NCBI GenBank assembly: GCA_036490475.1 | Contig: DASXDT010000006.1 | Location: 124,001-188,000 of the forward strand | Reading direction: 5' to 3' | Origin: Candidatus Tumulicola sp. | GTDB taxonomy: Bacteria > Vulcanimicrobiota > Vulcanimicrobiia > Vulcanimicrobiales > Vulcanimicrobiaceae | DNA: 64,000 nt | In this document: positions 5,224 through 15,507 of the stretch, in pieces | Layout: each line of letters starts with the position of its first letter | Numbering within the stretch: position 1 is the stretch's first letter | Program-made: the position numbers and the translations under genes | The notes under the pieces: model-generated | The model's database searches: none | The model's input: only the letters and a program-made list of their open reading frames with translations | Told to the model about the DNA's origin: nothing

Positions 5224-6405
5224 TTAGAACGCCTTGTAGCCGTTCGGTGAACCCCAGCCGCCAGGGCCGGAGTAGTTGCCGTATTGGCCCGTACCTGCCG
5301 TGCACAGATAGCTTCCGTTACACGAGCCATCGCTTCCGGCTAAGACAGGGTAGAGGTGCTTCTGGGCCTTTTTGGTCCACAGCTTCTTGCCGCCGTTCTG
5401 CTTCGTCGAATTTCCGGCTGCACCGAAGATCCCGCCGATGAGCGGTGACGAGATGCTCGTCCCGGCGACGGTAAACCAGCCGCCTTCGTTATAGGTGTCG
5501 TACTCAGCGACTTCTTGCGCCACGGCCGAAACGTCGTTGGCCGTGCGGTTCGAACAGCCAGGGTCCTTTTGCCATGTCGGTTTCGGTTCCGAGGAGCAGC
5601 CGGCACCCGAGTCGCGCCAGATCGTCTCTGAGTAGCCGCGCTTTCCTTTGGCCGTCAATAGGACCGTTCCACCGACGGAAACGACCGAGTCGTAGCTCGC
5701 CGGGTATGCGATTCCGTAGCCCGCATCGCCCGCGCTGGCGACATACGTGATGCCGGGTTGATCGAAGTCGCTGCGAACCATTCCGCCGCCGTCGTAGCTG
5801 TTGCTCACGACCGTAGCACCGAGTTTGACTGCTTCGGCTTCTGCTGCGCTAAGATCGGCCGAGCTGTTCGAGTTCGCCTCGACCAAGTAGATCGTGCACG
5901 CCGGGCAACCGACCGATACCATTTCGATATCGAGATCTTCTTCAAGAGCCCAGCCGGTGTTGCCGGCCGGATAGTTGCTCGTCTGCCCCGTCTGATTGTA
6001 CTTCGTAAACGTCGGGGCCGGAATACTGAAGTACGAACGGTATGCAGCCAGGTCGCTCGCCGCGTTCGGATTATCATACGCATCGACGATCGCCACGATC
6101 TGACCCTTACCGCCGGTCGGCTTCAGGTTGTACGCCTGGAGGATTTCGGGCGCGGTGATACCGGCGACATCGGGTCGGACTGCCGGTCCAACGAGAGCGT
6201 CGCACTGAGCCTGGTTGATGCGGCTGCCGCTGCATGCGGGGTGGTAGCTCGTCATCGGGAACACCGGCGTGCTATGCGCGCCGGCCGGCAAACTGGCGCC
6301 CGCGCCGCTCCCGGATGGCAGCGTAGAAGTTCCAGCGTTGGAGCTGCACGCCGCGATTGCGAACATAGCCGCAATTGGCATCGCCCGCTGAATGAAATGG
6401 TTCAC
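5224..6405 (-). CDS. S53 family (sedolisin/kumamolisin-like) serine-carboxyl peptidase, lipoprotein
   Basis: A 393-residue exported protein. The signal sequence ends in AIAAC, a lipobox with Cys at residue 20, so it is probably anchored to a membrane and faces outward. The S53 catalytic set is visible: Glu and Asp in LEEDLDIEM (spacing of four), the oxyanion-hole Asp in SAGDAGYG, and the nucleophile Ser in GTSISSP. The C-terminal GWGSPNG region corresponds to the calcium-binding end of the family. Family members act as endopeptidases, usually at acid pH. The usual inhibitory propeptide of roughly 150-200 residues is missing: only about 50 residues separate the lipobox from the catalytic core. 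GTG start with AAAGG seven bases upstream. A homologous gene lies at 7006-8304. Confidence 0.88.
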   Translation of the reverse strand: MNHFIQRAMPIAAMFAIAACSSNAGTSTLPSGSGAGASLPAGAHSTPVFPMTSYHPACSGSRINQAQCDALVGPAVRPDVAGITAPEILQAYNLKPTGGKGQIVAIVDAYDNPNAASDLAAYRSYFSIPAPTFTKYNQTGQTSNYPAGNTGWALEEDLDIEMVSVGCPACTIYLVEANSNSSADLSAAEAEAVKLGATVVSNSYDGGGMVRSDFDQPGITYVASAGDAGYGIAYPASYDSVVSVGGTVLLTAKGKRGYSETIWRDSGAGCSSEPKPTWQKDPGCSNRTANDVSAVAQEVAEYDTYNEGGWFTVAGTSISSPLIGGIFGAAGNSTKQNGGKKLWTKKAQKHLYPVLAGSDGSCNGSYLCTAGTGQYGNYSGPGGWGSPNGYKAF

Positions 6406-7005: not shown

Positions 7006-8304
7006 CTAAAATGCTCCCAGGCCGTTCGGCGATCCGAGGCCCGTCGGCCCATCGTAGCCGACGGCGGCTTGGCAAATGTATCCGACTGACGACGCGCAGC
7101 TTCCGGTCACCGGCGCGTACAGATTATTGCCGCTCGTGATGTCGTATAAGTGCGTTTTGTTCTGCCAGACGTGCTGCGGCGCGTTAATCGACTTGCCGTT
7201 GCCGGCGCGTGCGAAAATTCCCGCGATAATCGGCGTCGATGCACTGGTTCCGCCGAACGCCGTCCATCCGCCGTATCCGCTAAAGTAGACCGCGACCGGC
7301 GTCAAAACGGACGCTTCGGCAGCGACGTCGGCCTCGGACCGGTACTTACACTGTCCGTCGGTTTCCCAGGACGGCTTTTTCACGATGGTGCTGCAGCCGC
7401 TGCCGGTTCCACCGCAGCTTCCGCTGCACTCGTTGTCGGCAAGCTCGTTCCACACGGTCTCGCTCCAACCGCGGTTATTATCGGCGTGTTTGAGCAGCGT
7501 GCCGCCCACACACACGACCGTCGATAGCGAGCACGGTTGCTGCGGTCCGCCGCAGTCACCGAGGCCGCCGCCCTCGTCGCCGGCAGCCGCGACGAACACG
7601 TGCCCCGCAGTAGAGAACGTCGGGTTTGACCCCTGTCCGCCACCGCTGCACGACTTATATTCGCTTACACCGTATGAGTTGCTAATAACGATTGCACCGA
7701 GCTTGACGGCTTCGCCGACCGCAGCGTACAAGTTTGACGTCGAGTTGTCATTGGCTTCGATCAACAAAAGGTGACAGGCCGCGCACATCGCCGATGCCAT
7801 GTCGAGATCGAGCGCTTGTTCTCCCGACCAACTTACATTCGCAGGCGGCAGTTTCGTGCCGCCGGTTTGGTTGCGAATCTTCAGACAACTGCTGTTCGTG
7901 GTGCAGGCAGATTCTTTGTAGTACGAACGGTAGGCAGCGAGATCGGCCGATGCGTTCGGATAGCCGTAGGCATCCACGATCGCGATCAGCGTCGGGTGGC
8001 CGGTAGGCAATGCGTAAGCTGCGATCAGATCCTTCGGCCCGTACCCTGCGTGCGTCGTGTTGGGGTTCAAGTCGTTGGCACGCAAGTCCGAGCGTTCCAG
8101 CGCAAAACAGCGCATTTGGCCGACTCCCTGCACGGGCGGGCAGACGCGATTGACCGCATCCGGCCGAAGCAGCGGGATCTCACCGCTACCGCTTGCCGCG
8201 AATCCGGCGCCGGACGCCTGTGGAACGATGCCGCCACCGCCTTGACACGCTGCTAATGCGATTATCCCAGCCAGCGCGAGCATGCGAACGGAGAAGCGGT
8301 GCAT
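7006..8304 (-). CDS. S53 family serine-carboxyl peptidase, lipoprotein (second copy)
   Basis: A 432-residue homologue of the gene at 5224-6405. The signal peptide ends in IALAAC (lipobox, Cys at residue 20). Catalytic residues appear as Glu and Asp in EQALDLDM, the oxyanion Asp in AAAGDEGGG, and Ser in GTSASTP. The C-terminus YDGPTGLGSPNG is the normal calcium-site ending of S53 enzymes. It has more Cys residues than its neighbour, including CAAC after the Glu/Asp pair and a cluster around ECSGSCGGTGSGC, suggesting a disulfide-stabilised extracellular form. Like its neighbour it lacks the propeptide. It heads the leftward unit and is divergent from the alkyltransferase-like gene. Confidence 0.88.
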   Translation of the reverse strand: MHRFSVRMLALAGIIALAACQGGGGIVPQASGAGFAASGSGEIPLLRPDAVNRVCPPVQGVGQMRCFALERSDLRANDLNPNTTHAGYGPKDLIAAYALPTGHPTLIAIVDAYGYPNASADLAAYRSYYKESACTTNSSCLKIRNQTGGTKLPPANVSWSGEQALDLDMASAMCAACHLLLIEANDNSTSNLYAAVGEAVKLGAIVISNSYGVSEYKSCSGGGQGSNPTFSTAGHVFVAAAGDEGGGLGDCGGPQQPCSLSTVVCVGGTLLKHADNNRGWSETVWNELADNECSGSCGGTGSGCSTIVKKPSWETDGQCKYRSEADVAAEASVLTPVAVYFSGYGGWTAFGGTSASTPIIAGIFARAGNGKSINAPQHVWQNKTHLYDITSGNNLYAPVTGSCASSVGYICQAAVGYDGPTGLGSPNGLGAF

Positions 8305-10052: not shown

Positions 10053-10841
10053 GTGAGCGATTCCGACCCACGCCTGTCGTACGGCTCGTATCTTCAGGTC
10101 GGCCCGTTGCTGGGGTTGCAGCGGCCGCTATCAGAGCCGGCACACCATGACGAGTTGTTGTTCATCGTTATCCATCAAGTGTACGAACTCTGGTTCAAAC
10201 AGATCTTACACGAGCTCGACGCCGCAATGCGATCGATCGACGCGGACGATTTATTGCGCACGTCCAAGCGCTTCCGCCGCATCGACGCGATCCAGCGGCT
10301 GTTGGAACAACAAATCGATGTGCTCGAAACGATGACCCCGCAAGAGTTCAACCAATTTCGCGATAACCTCAATCCGGCCAGCGGCTTTCAATCGGTTCAG
10401 TTTCGAGAGATCGAGTTCGCGAGCGGATTGCAACGTCCCAACATTTTAAGCCAGATCGAACTCGATCCGGAGCAGCGGGAGCGACTGGAGCGGCGGATGG
10501 CCGAACCGACGCTCTACGATCGCGCGAAAAGCCTCTTACGACGTCGCGGCTTCGCCGTCGATACGCACGACCGGCTGCTCGAAACGTTCCATACGATTTA
10601 CACGCGCGAAGACCAGTATTACGATCTGTATCTTTTTCTTGAGGAATTGATCGAGTTCGACGAGCGGCTGTTGCTGTGGCGAGGCCGCCACGTTCGAATG
10701 GTCGAGCGTATGATCGGGGCGAAGACGGGTACCGGGGGTTCGTCGGGAGCGGCCTACCTGACTCGAACGCTCGAGACCAAACTATTTCCCGAACTATGGG
10801 AAGTTCGCACGACGCTCGGCGGTTCGCCGGCGTACGCTTAA
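10053..10841 (+). CDS. kynA: Tryptophan 2,3-dioxygenase
   Basis: Haem enzyme that opens the indole ring of L-Trp to give N-formylkynurenine, the first step of the kynurenine pathway. The 262-residue sequence carries the family signatures: HHDELLFIVIHQVYELWFKQ (residues 31-50) near the substrate pocket, and RHVRMVERMIG followed by KTGTGGSSG, in which His213 is the haem ligand and the Thr-Gly-Gly segment closes over the substrate. Length is normal for bacterial forms. GTG start immediately after the inhibitor stop codon; the kynureninase-like gene starts eight bases after its stop. No kynurenine formamidase gene is in the window. Confidence 0.95.
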   Translation: MSDSDPRLSYGSYLQVGPLLGLQRPLSEPAHHDELLFIVIHQVYELWFKQILHELDAAMRSIDADDLLRTSKRFRRIDAIQRLLEQQIDVLETMTPQEFNQFRDNLNPASGFQSVQFREIEFASGLQRPNILSQIELDPEQRERLERRMAEPTLYDRAKSLLRRRGFAVDTHDRLLETFHTIYTREDQYYDLYLFLEELIEFDERLLLWRGRHVRMVERMIGAKTGTGGSSGAAYLTRTLETKLFPELWEVRTTLGGSPAYA

Positions 10842-10849
10842 GGAACGCG

Positions 10850-11995
10850 ATGACGACGACAGTTACCAAAGCGCTCGAACGCGAGCATTTCCCGATCCTC
10901 GACGATTCGACGTATCTTGTCAGCCACTCGATGGGCGCTGCACCGCTAGGCGCGAAAGCGGCGCTCGAATCGTATTGGAACGAGTGGGCCGCAGAAGGCC
11001 CCGAAGCCTGGGAAAAGTGGCTTCCACGCATCGCAGAGACCGCCGACGGAATCGGCAGGCTGATCGGTGCGCCGGACGGCAGCGTCTTTTTGGGCCCGAA
11101 CGTTTCGTCGTTTCAAGCCGCGCTCGCGACCTGCATTCCGCTGCAAGGCGAACGCAACGAAGTGCTGTACGAATCGCTGCAATTTCCGTCGCTCACCTAC
11201 GTATGGAGCGAGTGGAAACGGTTCGGCGCCGTCATCAAGACGGTCGACTCGTCCGACGGCCGCACCATTCCAACCGAACGCATCGTCGATGCGATCACCG
11301 AGCGCACCGCAATCGCGGTGCTGTCGCACGCGTACTACGTTTCGGGGGCGATTGCCGACGTTCGAACAATTCAGCGCCGGTGTCGCGAGGTCGGCGCGCT
11401 CTTGTGCGTCGACGCGTATCAAACGACCGGCATCTATCCGTACGACGCCACCGAATGGGATCTCGACATCGTCACCGGTGGTTCGCATAAGTGGTTGTGC
11501 GGCGGCCCCGGCTGTGGATGGCTGTACGTCAAACCCGCCCTGCTGGACCGCTTTCGTCCGGCCGTGACCGGCTGGATGGCACACGCGCGGCCGTTTGCAT
11601 TCGAACCCGCTCCGATCGACTACGCGCCGACGATGTACCGCTTCGGCAACGGAACGCCGACGATTCCAGGGTACGTGGCCGCCAAAGCCGGACACGACCT
11701 CATTCACCGAGTCGGAGTGGCACGGATTCGGGAACACAACGTACGACTGACGACGATGCTAGCCGGCATGGCGCTCGAGCGCGGCTTGCGCGTCAACACG
11801 CCGCTCGAGCCGGAGCGCCGCACCGGATGGATCGGCATCGATTTCGACGATTCCGAACGAGTCTGCCGCGCCCTCATCGAGCGACGCGTCTTCGTCGATT
11901 ACCGGCCTGGTTGCGGGATCCGCGTCAGTCCGCACTTCTACACGACCGACGCAGAAATCGACGACTTTTTCGAAACGCTCGACGACCTGCGCTGA
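10850..11995 (+). CDS. kynU: Kynureninase-like PLP enzyme (aminotransferase class V fold)
   Basis: A 381-residue fold-type I PLP enzyme. The internal aldimine Lys is K214 in GGSHKWLCGGPG, which resembles the kynureninase signature around its Lys, and the pyridine-nitrogen Asp is D188 in LLCVDAYQ. The N-terminal SHSMGAAP replaces the NSLG motif of classical kynureninases. The ATG at 10850 has AAGGA five bases upstream, overlapping the dioxygenase stop codon. Position directly after tryptophan 2,3-dioxygenase supports cleavage of kynurenine to anthranilate and alanine; another class V activity cannot be ruled out from sequence. Confidence 0.78.
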   Translation: MTTTVTKALEREHFPILDDSTYLVSHSMGAAPLGAKAALESYWNEWAAEGPEAWEKWLPRIAETADGIGRLIGAPDGSVFLGPNVSSFQAALATCIPLQGERNEVLYESLQFPSLTYVWSEWKRFGAVIKTVDSSDGRTIPTERIVDAITERTAIAVLSHAYYVSGAIADVRTIQRRCREVGALLCVDAYQTTGIYPYDATEWDLDIVTGGSHKWLCGGPGCGWLYVKPALLDRFRPAVTGWMAHARPFAFEPAPIDYAPTMYRFGNGTPTIPGYVAAKAGHDLIHRVGVARIREHNVRLTTMLAGMALERGLRVNTPLEPERRTGWIGIDFDDSERVCRALIERRVFVDYRPGCGIRVSPHFYTTDAEIDDFFETLDDLR

Positions 11996-12030: not shown

Positions 12031-13368
12031 GTGATCGTCGATCATCGTAACCCCGGCGCCGCTTTCCGGCGCCTTTCGTTGCCCGTTGCCGCCCAATTGG
12101 TCGGCGATCAACTTTTGGGCATCGTCGACACGATCGTGATCGGTAGCTTAGGTGCCGTCGCACTCGCCGGCGCTACGGCAGCAAACGTCACGTTTCTGGT
12201 GATCGTCTTCTCGGTGTTCGGATTGTTGAGCGGCACGGCGATCGTCGCCGCGCAACGCATCGGTGCCGGCGATATCGATGGATTCGCGTTGACGGTGCGG
12301 TCCGGTGCATTGATCCCGTTGCTCTGCGGCACCGGTTACCTATTGTTAGCGTTCGTGGGCGCGCAACCGGTGATCCATTTGCTGGTCGGGCATCTGCCCA
12401 GCGCAGACGCGAGCGCGACCTACTTGATGCTACGCTGCGCGTCGATCATACCGATCGCGATTTCGGGCACCTCGATCGTCGGATTGTCCGCGGCCGGAAA
12501 CCGCATTCTGGGCGTGCTGGTGCTCTTGACGATCAATCTCGTCCACATTCCCTTGGTTCTGGTGCTCGCGCTGGGTTGGTGGACGCATCACCCATACGGC
12601 ATCGTCGGAGCGGGGGTATCCTCGCTGCTGTCGGAAACGGTCGGAATGATCTGCGCGGTCGTCTATGTTGCGGCCAAACCTTCATACAAAATATTCGCTC
12701 GCGCTCGCATTTCGGTTTCGGAGGCGTTGCGTTGCGCGCGCATCGGATTACCCGAATCGATCTTCTTAGTCGGCGTGATGCTCCCGGACGTCGTCATCGT
12801 CGCGATGTTGGCGCCGCTCGGGCCCACGATCGTTTCCGCATTCCGCGCTCTAAACGTCGTATCTGACTTGACCTTGGCATTGCCGTTACCGCTGCAGCAA
12901 GCGGCACAAACGGTCATCGGACAACGCCTCGGCGCCGGCGATCCCGATGGCGCGCGTTGGTTCCTGTTGCGTGCCCAACGGTTCGCGACGGTGCTCGGTT
13001 TTGCGGGCGGAGCGATCGCCGCAGCGTTCGCGTGGCCGTTGGCATTCGCGTTCACCTTGAACGCGACCGTGGCAAGCATTGCCGCACTGCCGCTAGCGTT
13101 ACATATGATCACGCTTCCGCTCAAAGGATGGGCCATGGTTTCTCTCGCGCCGATCAGAGCTGCCGGCGATACGCAGTTTTCTATGGCGATCGGTTTGGCG
13201 TGTAGCGCTTTGGTCATTCCGTTTGCCTGGTTCGGTATCGAACGGTTGCATATCGGGTTGTACGCGATTCCGCTCGGCTGGATCGCAGCGTGGGTAGTAC
13301 GCGCGGTCTGGACCCAGATCAAACTCCGCGACGGCGAGTGGGCGCGCCGGCCGCGCCTAGCGGTGTAG
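12031..13368 (+). CDS. MATE family efflux transporter
   Basis: A 445-residue integral membrane protein with about 12 hydrophobic segments arranged as two similar halves, characteristic of MATE antiporters that export organic cations, drugs or metabolites in exchange for H+ or Na+. The N-terminal half begins with LSLPVAAQLVGDQLLGIVDTIVIGSLG and the second half with GLPESIFLVGVMLPDVVIVAML; both are typical first-helix regions of MATE repeats. GTG start, 35 bases after the kynureninase-like gene; the glycosidase follows three bases after its stop. Export of a tryptophan-derived metabolite is a reasonable guess from context only. Confidence 0.9.
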   Translation: MIVDHRNPGAAFRRLSLPVAAQLVGDQLLGIVDTIVIGSLGAVALAGATAANVTFLVIVFSVFGLLSGTAIVAAQRIGAGDIDGFALTVRSGALIPLLCGTGYLLLAFVGAQPVIHLLVGHLPSADASATYLMLRCASIIPIAISGTSIVGLSAAGNRILGVLVLLTINLVHIPLVLVLALGWWTHHPYGIVGAGVSSLLSETVGMICAVVYVAAKPSYKIFARARISVSEALRCARIGLPESIFLVGVMLPDVVIVAMLAPLGPTIVSAFRALNVVSDLTLALPLPLQQAAQTVIGQRLGAGDPDGARWFLLRAQRFATVLGFAGGAIAAAFAWPLAFAFTLNATVASIAALPLALHMITLPLKGWAMVSLAPIRAAGDTQFSMAIGLACSALVIPFAWFGIERLHIGLYAIPLGWIAAWVVRAVWTQIKLRDGEWARRPRLAV

Positions 13369-13371
13369 GGC

Positions 13372-15507
13372 GTGTCGATGCTACGGTTCGGAGTCGCAAC
13401 CGCAGACCATCAGTGCGAAGCCTACGACGGAAACGACGACGTGCGGGACGTGTGGGAACGCGTGCGAGCGTTAGTGCCTCGCGGTAAAGCCACCGATTTC
13501 TGGAATCGCTACGGCGAAGATGTCGAGCTCGCGAAAAGCCTCGGCTGCACGGCATTTCGACTTTCCCTGTCGTGGGCGCGGCTCGAACCGCAGCCCGGCG
13601 TTTGGAATGACGAATCGTTCGCACATTACCGCGACGTGTTGCAATCGATTCGCGCAGCCGGAATGTCGGCCATCGTCACGCTCGTCCACAATACGTGGCC
13701 GTTGCACGTGCAAGCCGCCGGCGGAGGCGCGGGACCGCTCGACGCGGAGTTTCCCAACCGTGTTACGGCCTTTGCGACCGAGGTCGCGCAACGCCTCGGC
13801 GACCTGATCGACGACTACGTAACGCTCAACGAGCCGAACCAGCTGGTGTACGGCTGGATCAAAGGTTTCTGGATGCCCGCCTACGCGATGCCGCCCGGAC
13901 AGCCGCCGTATCAAACCGGCGACGAACAGATGGACGACGTCTTGATCCTTATTCCGAACCTGTTTCGCGCACACGCCAAGGCGCGCGATGCGATTCGCGC
14001 GATCCGCCCAACCGCACGCGTCGGCACGAATCCGCTGGTGTTGGGATTGCCGCAATGGTTGCAGCGTTGGGTCGACCGCAACGCCACGCACCTCCGTTCG
14101 CCCAACGACGCCAAGCGCCAAGCGGCGCGCATCGCGCAGTCCGCGATTGCCGAAGGCGGACGAGTGGATTGCTCGATCGCCCAGTTGACGCTAACCCGGC
14201 AGCGAGAGCAGCACGCGTTCTTCTCGGAGCCGTACTTTTGCACGCATCTCGCGGCGCTGCACGCGGCAACGCTCTCGCTACCCGACACGCAAACCTGGCG
14301 CGCGAACGTCGGCGTCGTTTCGCAGACGCTGACGGCCGACATCGTCGGCGGCTGGTTTCCGGCTGCGACCGTCTGCTATTTCGAATCGATGGAAGCGGCG
14401 GTCGCAGCGCTCCGTGCGGAAACGGTCGACGCTGTTTTCGACGACGAAGCGATGCTACGGGCGTTCGTGGATGGCGGCTTTTCGTCGACCCGGTTGCCCA
14501 GTTCCGAGCAGTATTTCGCCGTCGCGATGGCGCTCGGAAGCCGAACGCTGCTCAACATCGCGGACCGAGCGATTCGCGATCTGCGAGCGCAACGTTCGGA
14601 TATCCCGAACGCGCGCAATCGGAAAACGATCGCACACCTGGGCGATGGCGACGCACGCGCAGATGCTTCGAACGTGGCCGTACCCGACATGGACCGGTCG
14701 ATCGAACGGATTCGCAAGCGCGGCGTGCTGCGCGTCGGCGTACATCCGGGCGTTCCCGGCTTATGCGAACTGGTCAAGTCGGCGACGAAGCCCTCGGAAC
14801 GGTATAGCGGATTGGAACCGCAGGTCGCGCGCGCCATCGCGAAGCGTATTTTCGGAGATCCGGATCGCGTGCGGTTCGTCGAAGTCGGGGGCGCCCAGCG
14901 GCTGCAAGCGACGCGCTCGTGGGTCCATACGATCTTTGCGTTTCGCAAGAGCATCGCCATCTTCGGAACGCTCCTCGGAACGAATTGGTGGAACCTGGGT
15001 ATGGCCGGCAAGCTGCCCGGCTTTCTGTGTCCACCAGAATGTGTCGGCACGCTCGATTTTGTCGGCCTGGATTATTATTGGGGCGTGCCGTCTATTTGGC
15101 CGTCGCAACTGCACCGCCTCAGTGCTGCGGCGGATTTTCAATATGCGAACGCGCCGGTATGGCCGAGCGCACTCGATTCAATTCTCACCCAGGCCACACG
15201 CGACTTTCCGGGCAAGCCGATTTTCATCATCGAAAACGGATGCGTCGCCCGCGCGGCGGGCTTCAGTCGCGCCGACTATCTCCGCGCGCACGTCGAACAA
15301 GTGCGACGATCGGTCGAACGCGGCGCGCCGGTTGAAGCGTATCTCTGCTGGAGCATCACGTCGAACCGAGAGTGGGGTTTGCCGTTCGACGACGGCAGCG
15401 ACTTCGGTTTATATCACATCGATCTCGATACCGATCCCTCTCTCAAGCGCATGCCGACCGAATCCAGCCGCGAGTACGCTTCGCTGATCGTCAGTCAGAA
15501 GAGCTAA
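13372..15507 (+). CDS. GH1 glycosidase with a nested, apparently circularly permuted amino-acid-binding (SBP_bac_3) domain
   Basis: A 711-residue protein with no signal peptide. Residues 1-245 and 514-711 form a GH1 (beta-glucosidase-type) barrel: Gln14 and His106 of the -1 site, acid/base Glu154 in TLNEPN, nucleophile Glu621 in IIENG, and the CWSITSNREWG end motif. Between them lies a solute-binding domain in swapped order. Residues about 255-408 match the second part of an SBP_bac_3 protein (GRVDCSIAQLTLTRQRE, FFSEPYF, then TVDAVFDDEAM). Residues about 441-513 match its first part (SIERIRKRGVLRVGVHPGVP, then YSGLEPQVARAIAKRIFGDP). Ligand residues Arg278 (carboxylate) and Asp358 (amino group) appear kept. 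GTG start; an ATG two codons later is possible. Last gene of the rightward Trp-catabolism run; the final 17 bases overlap the convergent phosphatase. Confidence 0.82.
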   Translation: MSMLRFGVATADHQCEAYDGNDDVRDVWERVRALVPRGKATDFWNRYGEDVELAKSLGCTAFRLSLSWARLEPQPGVWNDESFAHYRDVLQSIRAAGMSAIVTLVHNTWPLHVQAAGGGAGPLDAEFPNRVTAFATEVAQRLGDLIDDYVTLNEPNQLVYGWIKGFWMPAYAMPPGQPPYQTGDEQMDDVLILIPNLFRAHAKARDAIRAIRPTARVGTNPLVLGLPQWLQRWVDRNATHLRSPNDAKRQAARIAQSAIAEGGRVDCSIAQLTLTRQREQHAFFSEPYFCTHLAALHAATLSLPDTQTWRANVGVVSQTLTADIVGGWFPAATVCYFESMEAAVAALRAETVDAVFDDEAMLRAFVDGGFSSTRLPSSEQYFAVAMALGSRTLLNIADRAIRDLRAQRSDIPNARNRKTIAHLGDGDARADASNVAVPDMDRSIERIRKRGVLRVGVHPGVPGLCELVKSATKPSERYSGLEPQVARAIAKRIFGDPDRVRFVEVGGAQRLQATRSWVHTIFAFRKSIAIFGTLLGTNWWNLGMAGKLPGFLCPPECVGTLDFVGLDYYWGVPSIWPSQLHRLSAAADFQYANAPVWPSALDSILTQATRDFPGKPIFIIENGCVARAAGFSRADYLRAHVEQVRRSVERGAPVEAYLCWSITSNREWGLPFDDGSDFGLYHIDLDTDPSLKRMPTESSREYASLIVSQKS

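Follow-up and report, generated by a model that had tools for sequence, protein, structure and literature searches.

Permuted-insertion fusion of a binding protein to an enzyme is a standard engineering design. In ionotropic glutamate receptors the ligand-binding core, which has the SBP fold, is split by the pore, and closure of its two lobes gates the effector. In MltF of P. aeruginosa the active site opens when a muropeptide binds the regulatory domain (PMC10746161). In M. tuberculosis GlnH the alpha groups of the ligand are held by Ser164, Arg169 and Asp250, and the aspartate side chain by Arg147, Thr162 and Trp232 (PMC6069109). The window (the whole 64,000-nucleotide stretch of Candidatus Tumulicola sp. 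DNA analysed here) contains a gene whose product, by profiles and structure models, is almost certainly a cytosolic retaining GH1 beta-glycosidase with a whole two-lobed, permuted amino-acid-binding domain between barrel strands 5 and 6. Such a protein would be a natural counterpart to the ligand-switched enzymes of engineers, its switching being putative. The preliminary description of the locus knew of no enzyme like it, and our search of open-access papers agrees, having found no description of a natural permuted SBP inside an enzyme.

The GH1 barrel

The GH1-SBP gene (13372..15507, + strand) is a single, intact open reading frame of 711 codons for amino acids, and its product has no signal peptide. 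The protein matches the Pfam GH1 family PF00232 with 141.3 bits (curated cut-off 22.6, E 4e-41) in two stretches that flank the insert, and the second part alone gives 59.1 bits (E 3.5e-16). Barrel part one, residues 1–255 (13372..14136, +), contains strands beta1 to beta5 and two helices (PF00232 6–220 and AlphaFold2 secondary structure), and part two, residues 517–711 (14920..15504, +), contains beta6 to beta8 (Pfam GH1 335–451). Of 50 aligned homologues, 49 have the catalytic acid/base Glu154, in the motif LNEP (13831..13833, +), and all 50 have the nucleophile Glu621, in the motif IENG (15232..15234, +); the alignment shows no variation at Q14, H106, N153, W660, E667 or W668. The interrupted barrel with both of its catalytic glutamates, as first described, is thus borne out. 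The protein is a member of GH1 by its profile, its glutamate pair and its modelled (beta/alpha)8 barrel, retaining activity is predicted, and the conserved residues indicate that most members of the family are probably catalytically competent. Two homologues stand apart: the Westiellopsis prolifica gene is present as two overlapping frames (486 and 281 amino acids), from a frameshift or a sequencing error, and in L080 (5743–7482), a member with only lobe 1 of the receptor, the acid/base glutamate is replaced by alanine (LNAP), so that this enzyme is probably impaired or changed in catalysis.

An AlphaFold2 model of the full-length protein, made with family sequences, has a pLDDT of 88.3 and a pTM of 0.89. 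In it a helix of residues 244–255 leads into the insert, a helix of residues 517–531 leads out of it, and barrel strand 6 follows at 563–571. The top PDB matches of the whole model in Foldseek are all GH1 enzymes.

The permuted receptor domain and its pocket

The insert had been read as an SBP_bac_3 domain at about residues 250–513, with its halves in swapped order and its natural termini joined by a linker of about 30 residues. The swapped order stands, the limits move to about 256–516, just inside the two helices, and the linker is present but is about 25 residues long. The natural C-terminal part comes first, at residues 256–409 (14137..14598, +), and comprises a lobe-1 strand, a hinge, lobe 2, a second hinge and the C-terminal helix; it matches positions 124–271 of an SBP profile at insert positions 7–151. 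Within it, lobe 2 spans residues ~291–379 (14242..14508, +), a segment that is cleanly missing in several Eremiobacterota. The linker between the natural termini, residues 410–434 (14599..14673, +), lies at the optimum of a rotation scan (below), has a relaxed dN/dS and includes residues of low model confidence (pLDDT below 50 at 427–431). The natural N-terminal part comes second, at residues 435–516 (14674..14919, +), and matches profile positions 45–119 at insert positions 178–256. In two Eremiobacterota homologues (L054 and L021) this N-terminal half contains an extra stretch of about 50 residues or more.

Eleven standalone SBPs of normal order, taken from Eremiobacterota and cyanobacteria, went into the profile used here. 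Against it the inserts of all 39 aligned full-length members give two crossing pieces in their native order (for a Nostoc insert, profile 120–281 first and then 53–121), and all 39 give one continuous match when the halves are reordered, with 238 bits for the Nostoc insert and 106 bits for that of the window. With Pfam SBP_bac_3 (cut-off 26.4) the window insert likewise improves from 29.3 bits in two pieces to 39.8 bits in one. A rotation scan, in which the insert was restarted at every position and its best single-domain score against normal-order SBPs was recorded, does not presuppose any order; it raised the window insert from 48.6 bits to 107.5 when started at residue ~410–434, and the Nostoc member from 139 to 239 bits. 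The crossing pieces abut within 0–4 profile positions in the members inspected, and in pairwise alignments with standalone SBP relatives both halves cover a few of the same residues, so that the new break cost the domain essentially no sequence. This break is in the lobe-1 loop "R-L-x-x-L...G-x-V-D", which is uninterrupted in ordinary SBPs, in agreement with the original placement of the new termini. The abutting pieces and the rotation scan rule out two separate domains in place of one permuted domain. The insert is a derived SBP_bac_3 domain that departs from two usual features of that family, secretion and the canonical N-to-C order (permuted in 39 of 39). Such a permutation pattern could not plausibly arise by chance, and three phyla share it. 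The window comes from a genome bin of several contigs, and a local misassembly of a GH1 gene with an SBP gene might give an out-of-order SBP; however, the same order and breakpoints are found in many independent assemblies from the three phyla, named strains among them, and the gene is one open frame under purifying selection. Such an annotation or assembly artefact is refuted by these independent genomes, and its probability is negligible.

Modelled alone, the insert is predicted confidently as a single domain (pLDDT 88.4, pTM 0.85), and its first-ranked Foldseek matches are amino-acid-binding proteins, so the structural check proposed with the first reading was passed. The insert model fits glutamate-bound 5eyf to 1.9–2.0 Å over ~150 columns, a comparison that covers only one half of the insert because Foldseek aligns sequentially and the domain is permuted; that the domain is a two-lobed SBP fold rests, for the second half, on the confident single-domain model and the sequence profile. 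Matches to the tandem receptors BvgS, EvgS and GlnPQ SBD1-SBD2 span 240–269 columns, as might be expected if the C-half and N-half of the insert are the remainder of a tandem pair without its outer halves. ArgBP is matched by Foldseek at 3.0 Å in its holo form and at 6.1 Å in its apo form, and the better holo fit suggests that the insert was modelled in a closed-like state.

The pocket retains the residues that would hold an amino acid. Arg278 (14203..14205, +), the putative alpha-carboxylate anchor, aligns with GlnH Arg169 and is present in 39 of 39 full-length members; Asp358 (14443..14445, +), the putative alpha-amino anchor, aligns with GlnH Asp250 and is Asp in 36 of 39 and Glu in one; and Arg510 (14899..14901, +), again in 39 of 39, aligns with GlnH Arg147, which contacts the side-chain carboxylate (PMC6069109 for the GlnH residues). 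The preservation of Arg278 and Asp358 had been noted at the outset, and the two positions correspond to the alpha-carboxyl and alpha-amino contacts of the SBP fold. T273 of the insert occupies the GlnH Ser164 position, which is T or A among members. Cyanobacterial members have Thr or Asn and Tyr, Phe or His at the two other side-chain positions, with a Lys elsewhere in the pocket, and the retention of anchors and side-chain positions makes their receptors look Asp/Glu-like; the homology of the pocket points to acidic or polar amino acids as ligands there. The Eremiobacterota core, which includes the clade of the window, has Gln at the Thr position, is variable at the Trp/Tyr232 position and has His or Arg for the Lys, and this drift suggests that specificity has changed or binding has weakened in the window's clade. 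The best solved relatives of the restored cyanobacterial domain are the glutamate-binding protein 5eyf (7e-40, in one stretch) and M. tuberculosis GlnH (1e-35), and the restored window domain matches the Asp/Glu-binding Peb1a (4e-13).

The restored-domain matches also include the deoxyfructosyl-amino-acid binding proteins 5l9o and 5lom. These matches, and the joint conservation of the amino-acid anchors and the GH1 active site, would suit a module for substrate recruitment, in which an aminoacyl glycoside or related conjugate is held at its amino-acid end by the receptor, which presents the sugar end to the GH1 site, much like an aglycone-specific carbohydrate-binding module. We consider this improbable, since SBPs of this family bury the ligand between closed lobes (as in GlnH, PMC6069109), so that a tethered glycoside would have scant space to reach a separate site, and since the genes near the cyanobacterial and Chloroflexi members (P450, GMC oxidoreductase, patatin and SDR) suggest hydrophobic aglycones instead.

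Distribution, constraint and gene neighbourhood

Full-length genes with the same order and breakpoints are present in many Eremiobacterota, in cyanobacteria (chiefly Nostocales, and also Cyanosarcina) and in Chloroflexota, so a search of other genomes, suggested with the original reading, was answered positively. A family member, counting reduced and partial ones, is present in 29 of the 98 Eremiobacterota relatives searched, and the cyanobacteria with the full-length gene include culture-collection strains; Fischerella sp. PCC 9431 and Chlorogloeopsis fritschii PCC 6912 are among the named ones. One locus (L077) is titled as Proteobacteria, and its genome groups with the Chloroflexota set. 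Three Chloroflexota GH1 relatives without any insert (L087–L089) have GH1 parts 57–67% identical to those of full-length Eremiobacterota, cyanobacterial and Chloroflexota members, which indicates that the barrel does not need the receptor domain. Three deeper Chloroflexota GH1 outgroups (L100, L106 and L112) also lack the receptor and have a short unrelated segment at the same site, so this site seems tolerant of insertions.

In a tree of SBPs the inserted domains group apart from the standalone ones with a support of 90/76; that they form one side of the tree is consistent with a single origin. The branch to the Eremiobacterota core group that includes the window is long (1.19). On whether the insert-free L087–L089 are ancestral or secondary losses, a tree with all inserted members constrained to one clade gave an AU p of 0.21, and either history may be right. 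The genome of the window itself gave no SBP_bac_3 match at E 0.001, which is why a recent fusion with one of its own SBPs was rejected, the 90/76 grouping being only suggestive. Inspection of N termini found no signal peptide in any fused member, as expected from the cytosolic location first proposed, whereas the standalone SBP relatives have hydrophobic or lipobox secretion-type leaders; the receptor thus appears to have moved into the cytosol.

Some Eremiobacterota lack exactly lobe 2, the distal lobe: the cut lies between the two hinge strands, lobe 1 remains, and the result is a one-lobed remnant within a GH1 protein that is otherwise intact. These deletions are seen in L026, L027, L028, L029, L075, L078, L080 and L081 (alignment A1); their junctions differ (FSEPYAVA-PDGRFYAVA, FSEPYEIS-TTGTPLAAA and FSKPY-ARGYAVA), and the tree forces at least three changes in the presence or absence of the lobe. 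Its repeated deletion suggests that ligand sensing is dispensable in some lineages. Pairwise omega is 0.01–0.11 for the GH1 parts, 0.06–0.21 for lobe 1, 0.10–0.42 for lobe 2 (0.36–0.42 against close relatives in the window's clade) and mostly higher for the linker. All folded parts are under purifying selection, lobe 2 least.

The main rival to amino-acid gating, at least for Eremiobacterota, is that the insert is structural or vestigial: the receptor would only scaffold the barrel or an oligomer interface, with binding relaxed or lost, chiefly in Eremiobacterota, and lobe 1 kept as the base of the GH1 helices. Removal of lobe 2 in at least three separate changes with lobe 1 kept, the rapid evolution of lobe 2 relative to the other folded parts, the varied pocket side-chain positions in the window's clade, and the lack of the catalytic acid/base in lobe-1-only L080 all fit this reading. 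We nevertheless think it unlikely, although a serious possibility, as full-length members of all three phyla keep the Arg and Asp anchors with very few exceptions, purifying selection still acts on lobe 2 (omega range above), and the insert-free members do without any scaffold.

Immediately upstream in the window is a MATE-family transporter gene (12031..13368, +; TIGR00797 152 bits, cut-off 147.4), which ends 3 bases before the GH1-SBP gene, and the two are likely on one transcript in the window's species only. The preceding region, 10053–11995, encodes a tryptophan 2,3-dioxygenase-like protein (273.6 bits against a cut-off of 390.7) and a class-V aminotransferase-like protein that scores 91.5 bits with the kynureninase model (curated cut-off 246.4) and 95 with the SufS model. 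From this operon tryptophan or a kynurenine had been suggested as the ligand. When neighbourhoods were compared by profile and tblastn searches, these dioxygenase, aminotransferase and MATE genes lay beside no other family member among the loci examined; the array was found at the window locus only, its "kynureninase" falls well below the cut-off, and the conserved Eremiobacterota neighbour is a short-chain dehydrogenase (SDR), so that suggestion is not supported. We note that two similar lipoprotein-like proteins, putative sedolisin-type (S53) peptidases by reading, are encoded close together further upstream (5224–6405 and 7006–8304, both on the – strand).

Most Eremiobacterota relatives of the fused gene have the SDR gene alongside, divergently transcribed in about 45 loci and 71–100% identical to the reference copy at L035 (5198–5986, – strand); the SDR may share a substrate pathway with the fused glycosidase. 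Cyanobacterial neighbours encode a P450, alpha/beta hydrolases, a GMC oxidoreductase, patatin, an acetoacetate-decarboxylase-like protein and an SDR, and one Chloroflexota member has upstream a GMC oxidoreductase that is not an orthologue. These genes hint at oxidised hydrophobic aglycones and not at tryptophan. The frequent adjacency of the Eremiobacterota SDR, and the control of PknG by an SBP through a partner (PMC6069109), would also be compatible with a receptor that senses an amino acid and controls the binding of another protein, such as a neighbouring SDR or oxidoreductase, instead of catalysis in cis. The neighbours differ among phyla, however, and the window's own genome has no SDR orthologue (best match 38%), so we regard readout through a partner as decidedly improbable.

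Putative gating and comparison with known systems

The GH1-SBP protein is best explained as a beta-glycosidase of the cytosol whose activity a free amino acid would gate, a proposal that we think has an even chance of being right. A free cytosolic amino acid would bind the putative receptor and close its two lobes; because lobe 1 holds both new termini, each joined directly to a helix that flanks the beta5-beta6 segment of the barrel, closure would alter the active-site face, the signal passing along these two connecting helices, and the changed geometry or openness of that face would raise or lower glycosidase activity. In cyanobacteria the ligand would probably be acidic (Asp/Glu-like), and the Eremiobacterota core, the window included, would probably bind a different polar amino acid. 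The receptor domain would have been acquired once, from a periplasmic amino-acid SBP, possibly from a tandem SBP pair whose outer halves were lost to leave a C-half followed by an N-half, and lineages without lobe 2 would have lost sensing and kept the enzyme. It is about equally credible and doubtful that the homologues together are a naturally evolved family of cytosolic amino-acid-gated GH1 glycosidases, made by permutation and insertion, that links amino-acid status to glycoside breakdown. If this is true, the coexistence of inserted, half-deleted and insert-free members would let one follow how an allosteric switch arose and decayed, and since the states before, during and after (no insert, full receptor, lobe 1 only) occur on a well-studied scaffold with simple chromogenic assays, gain and loss of allostery would be directly testable.

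The enzyme part is most like GH1 beta-glucosidases such as 4r27 (BGL167) and the human cytosolic beta-glycosylceramidase 2e9l, which have the same fold, glutamate pair and NEP and ENG motifs but lack an insert between the beta5 and beta6 helices. The closest solved receptor relatives, whose alpha-amino and alpha-carboxyl anchors align with those of the insert, are mycobacterial GlnH, Peb1a and glutamate-binding SBPs (5eyf, 6h1u and 2v25); GlnH acts as a sensor and not as a transporter component, and SBPs of this type are, unlike the insert, secreted, standalone and in normal order.

The nearest functional precedents for the putative gating would be MltF and the engineered chimeras RG13 and XynA-XBP (PMC3375305, PMC4896006). 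In the chimeras an enzyme and a periplasmic-type binding domain are nested, as in the GH1-SBP protein, and RG13 uses circular permutation as its topological trick, so that from the receptor's side the GH1-SBP nesting is of the same kind, with the difference that here the receptor is the partner that is both permuted and inserted. Unlike these switches the GH1-SBP protein is natural, occurs in three phyla, has a GH1 enzyme and an amino-acid rather than a sugar receptor, and is cytosolic, its control by ligand being putative. MltF also joins an SBP_bac_3-related domain to a glycan-cleaving enzyme, and the GH1-SBP receptor has a weak match to the NCBIfam MltF model NF008112; control of the enzyme belongs to MltF and is putative here, and MltF is an end-to-end fusion in normal order, an envelope protein, and has a transglycosylase domain. 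The GH1-SBP protein belongs to neither the MltF nor the engineered class, and its catalytic domain is GH1, not an MltF-type transglycosylase. Ionotropic glutamate receptors resemble it in that enzyme or pore, the effector module, and an SBP-fold domain are nested, the effector interrupting the SBP-fold domain; they differ in having an ion channel as effector, in its placement elsewhere in the SBP fold, in being membrane proteins and in lacking a permutation. If the gating is true, the GH1-SBP family would employ in the cytosol a receptor fold that elsewhere is known chiefly in the periplasm and in these glutamate receptors.
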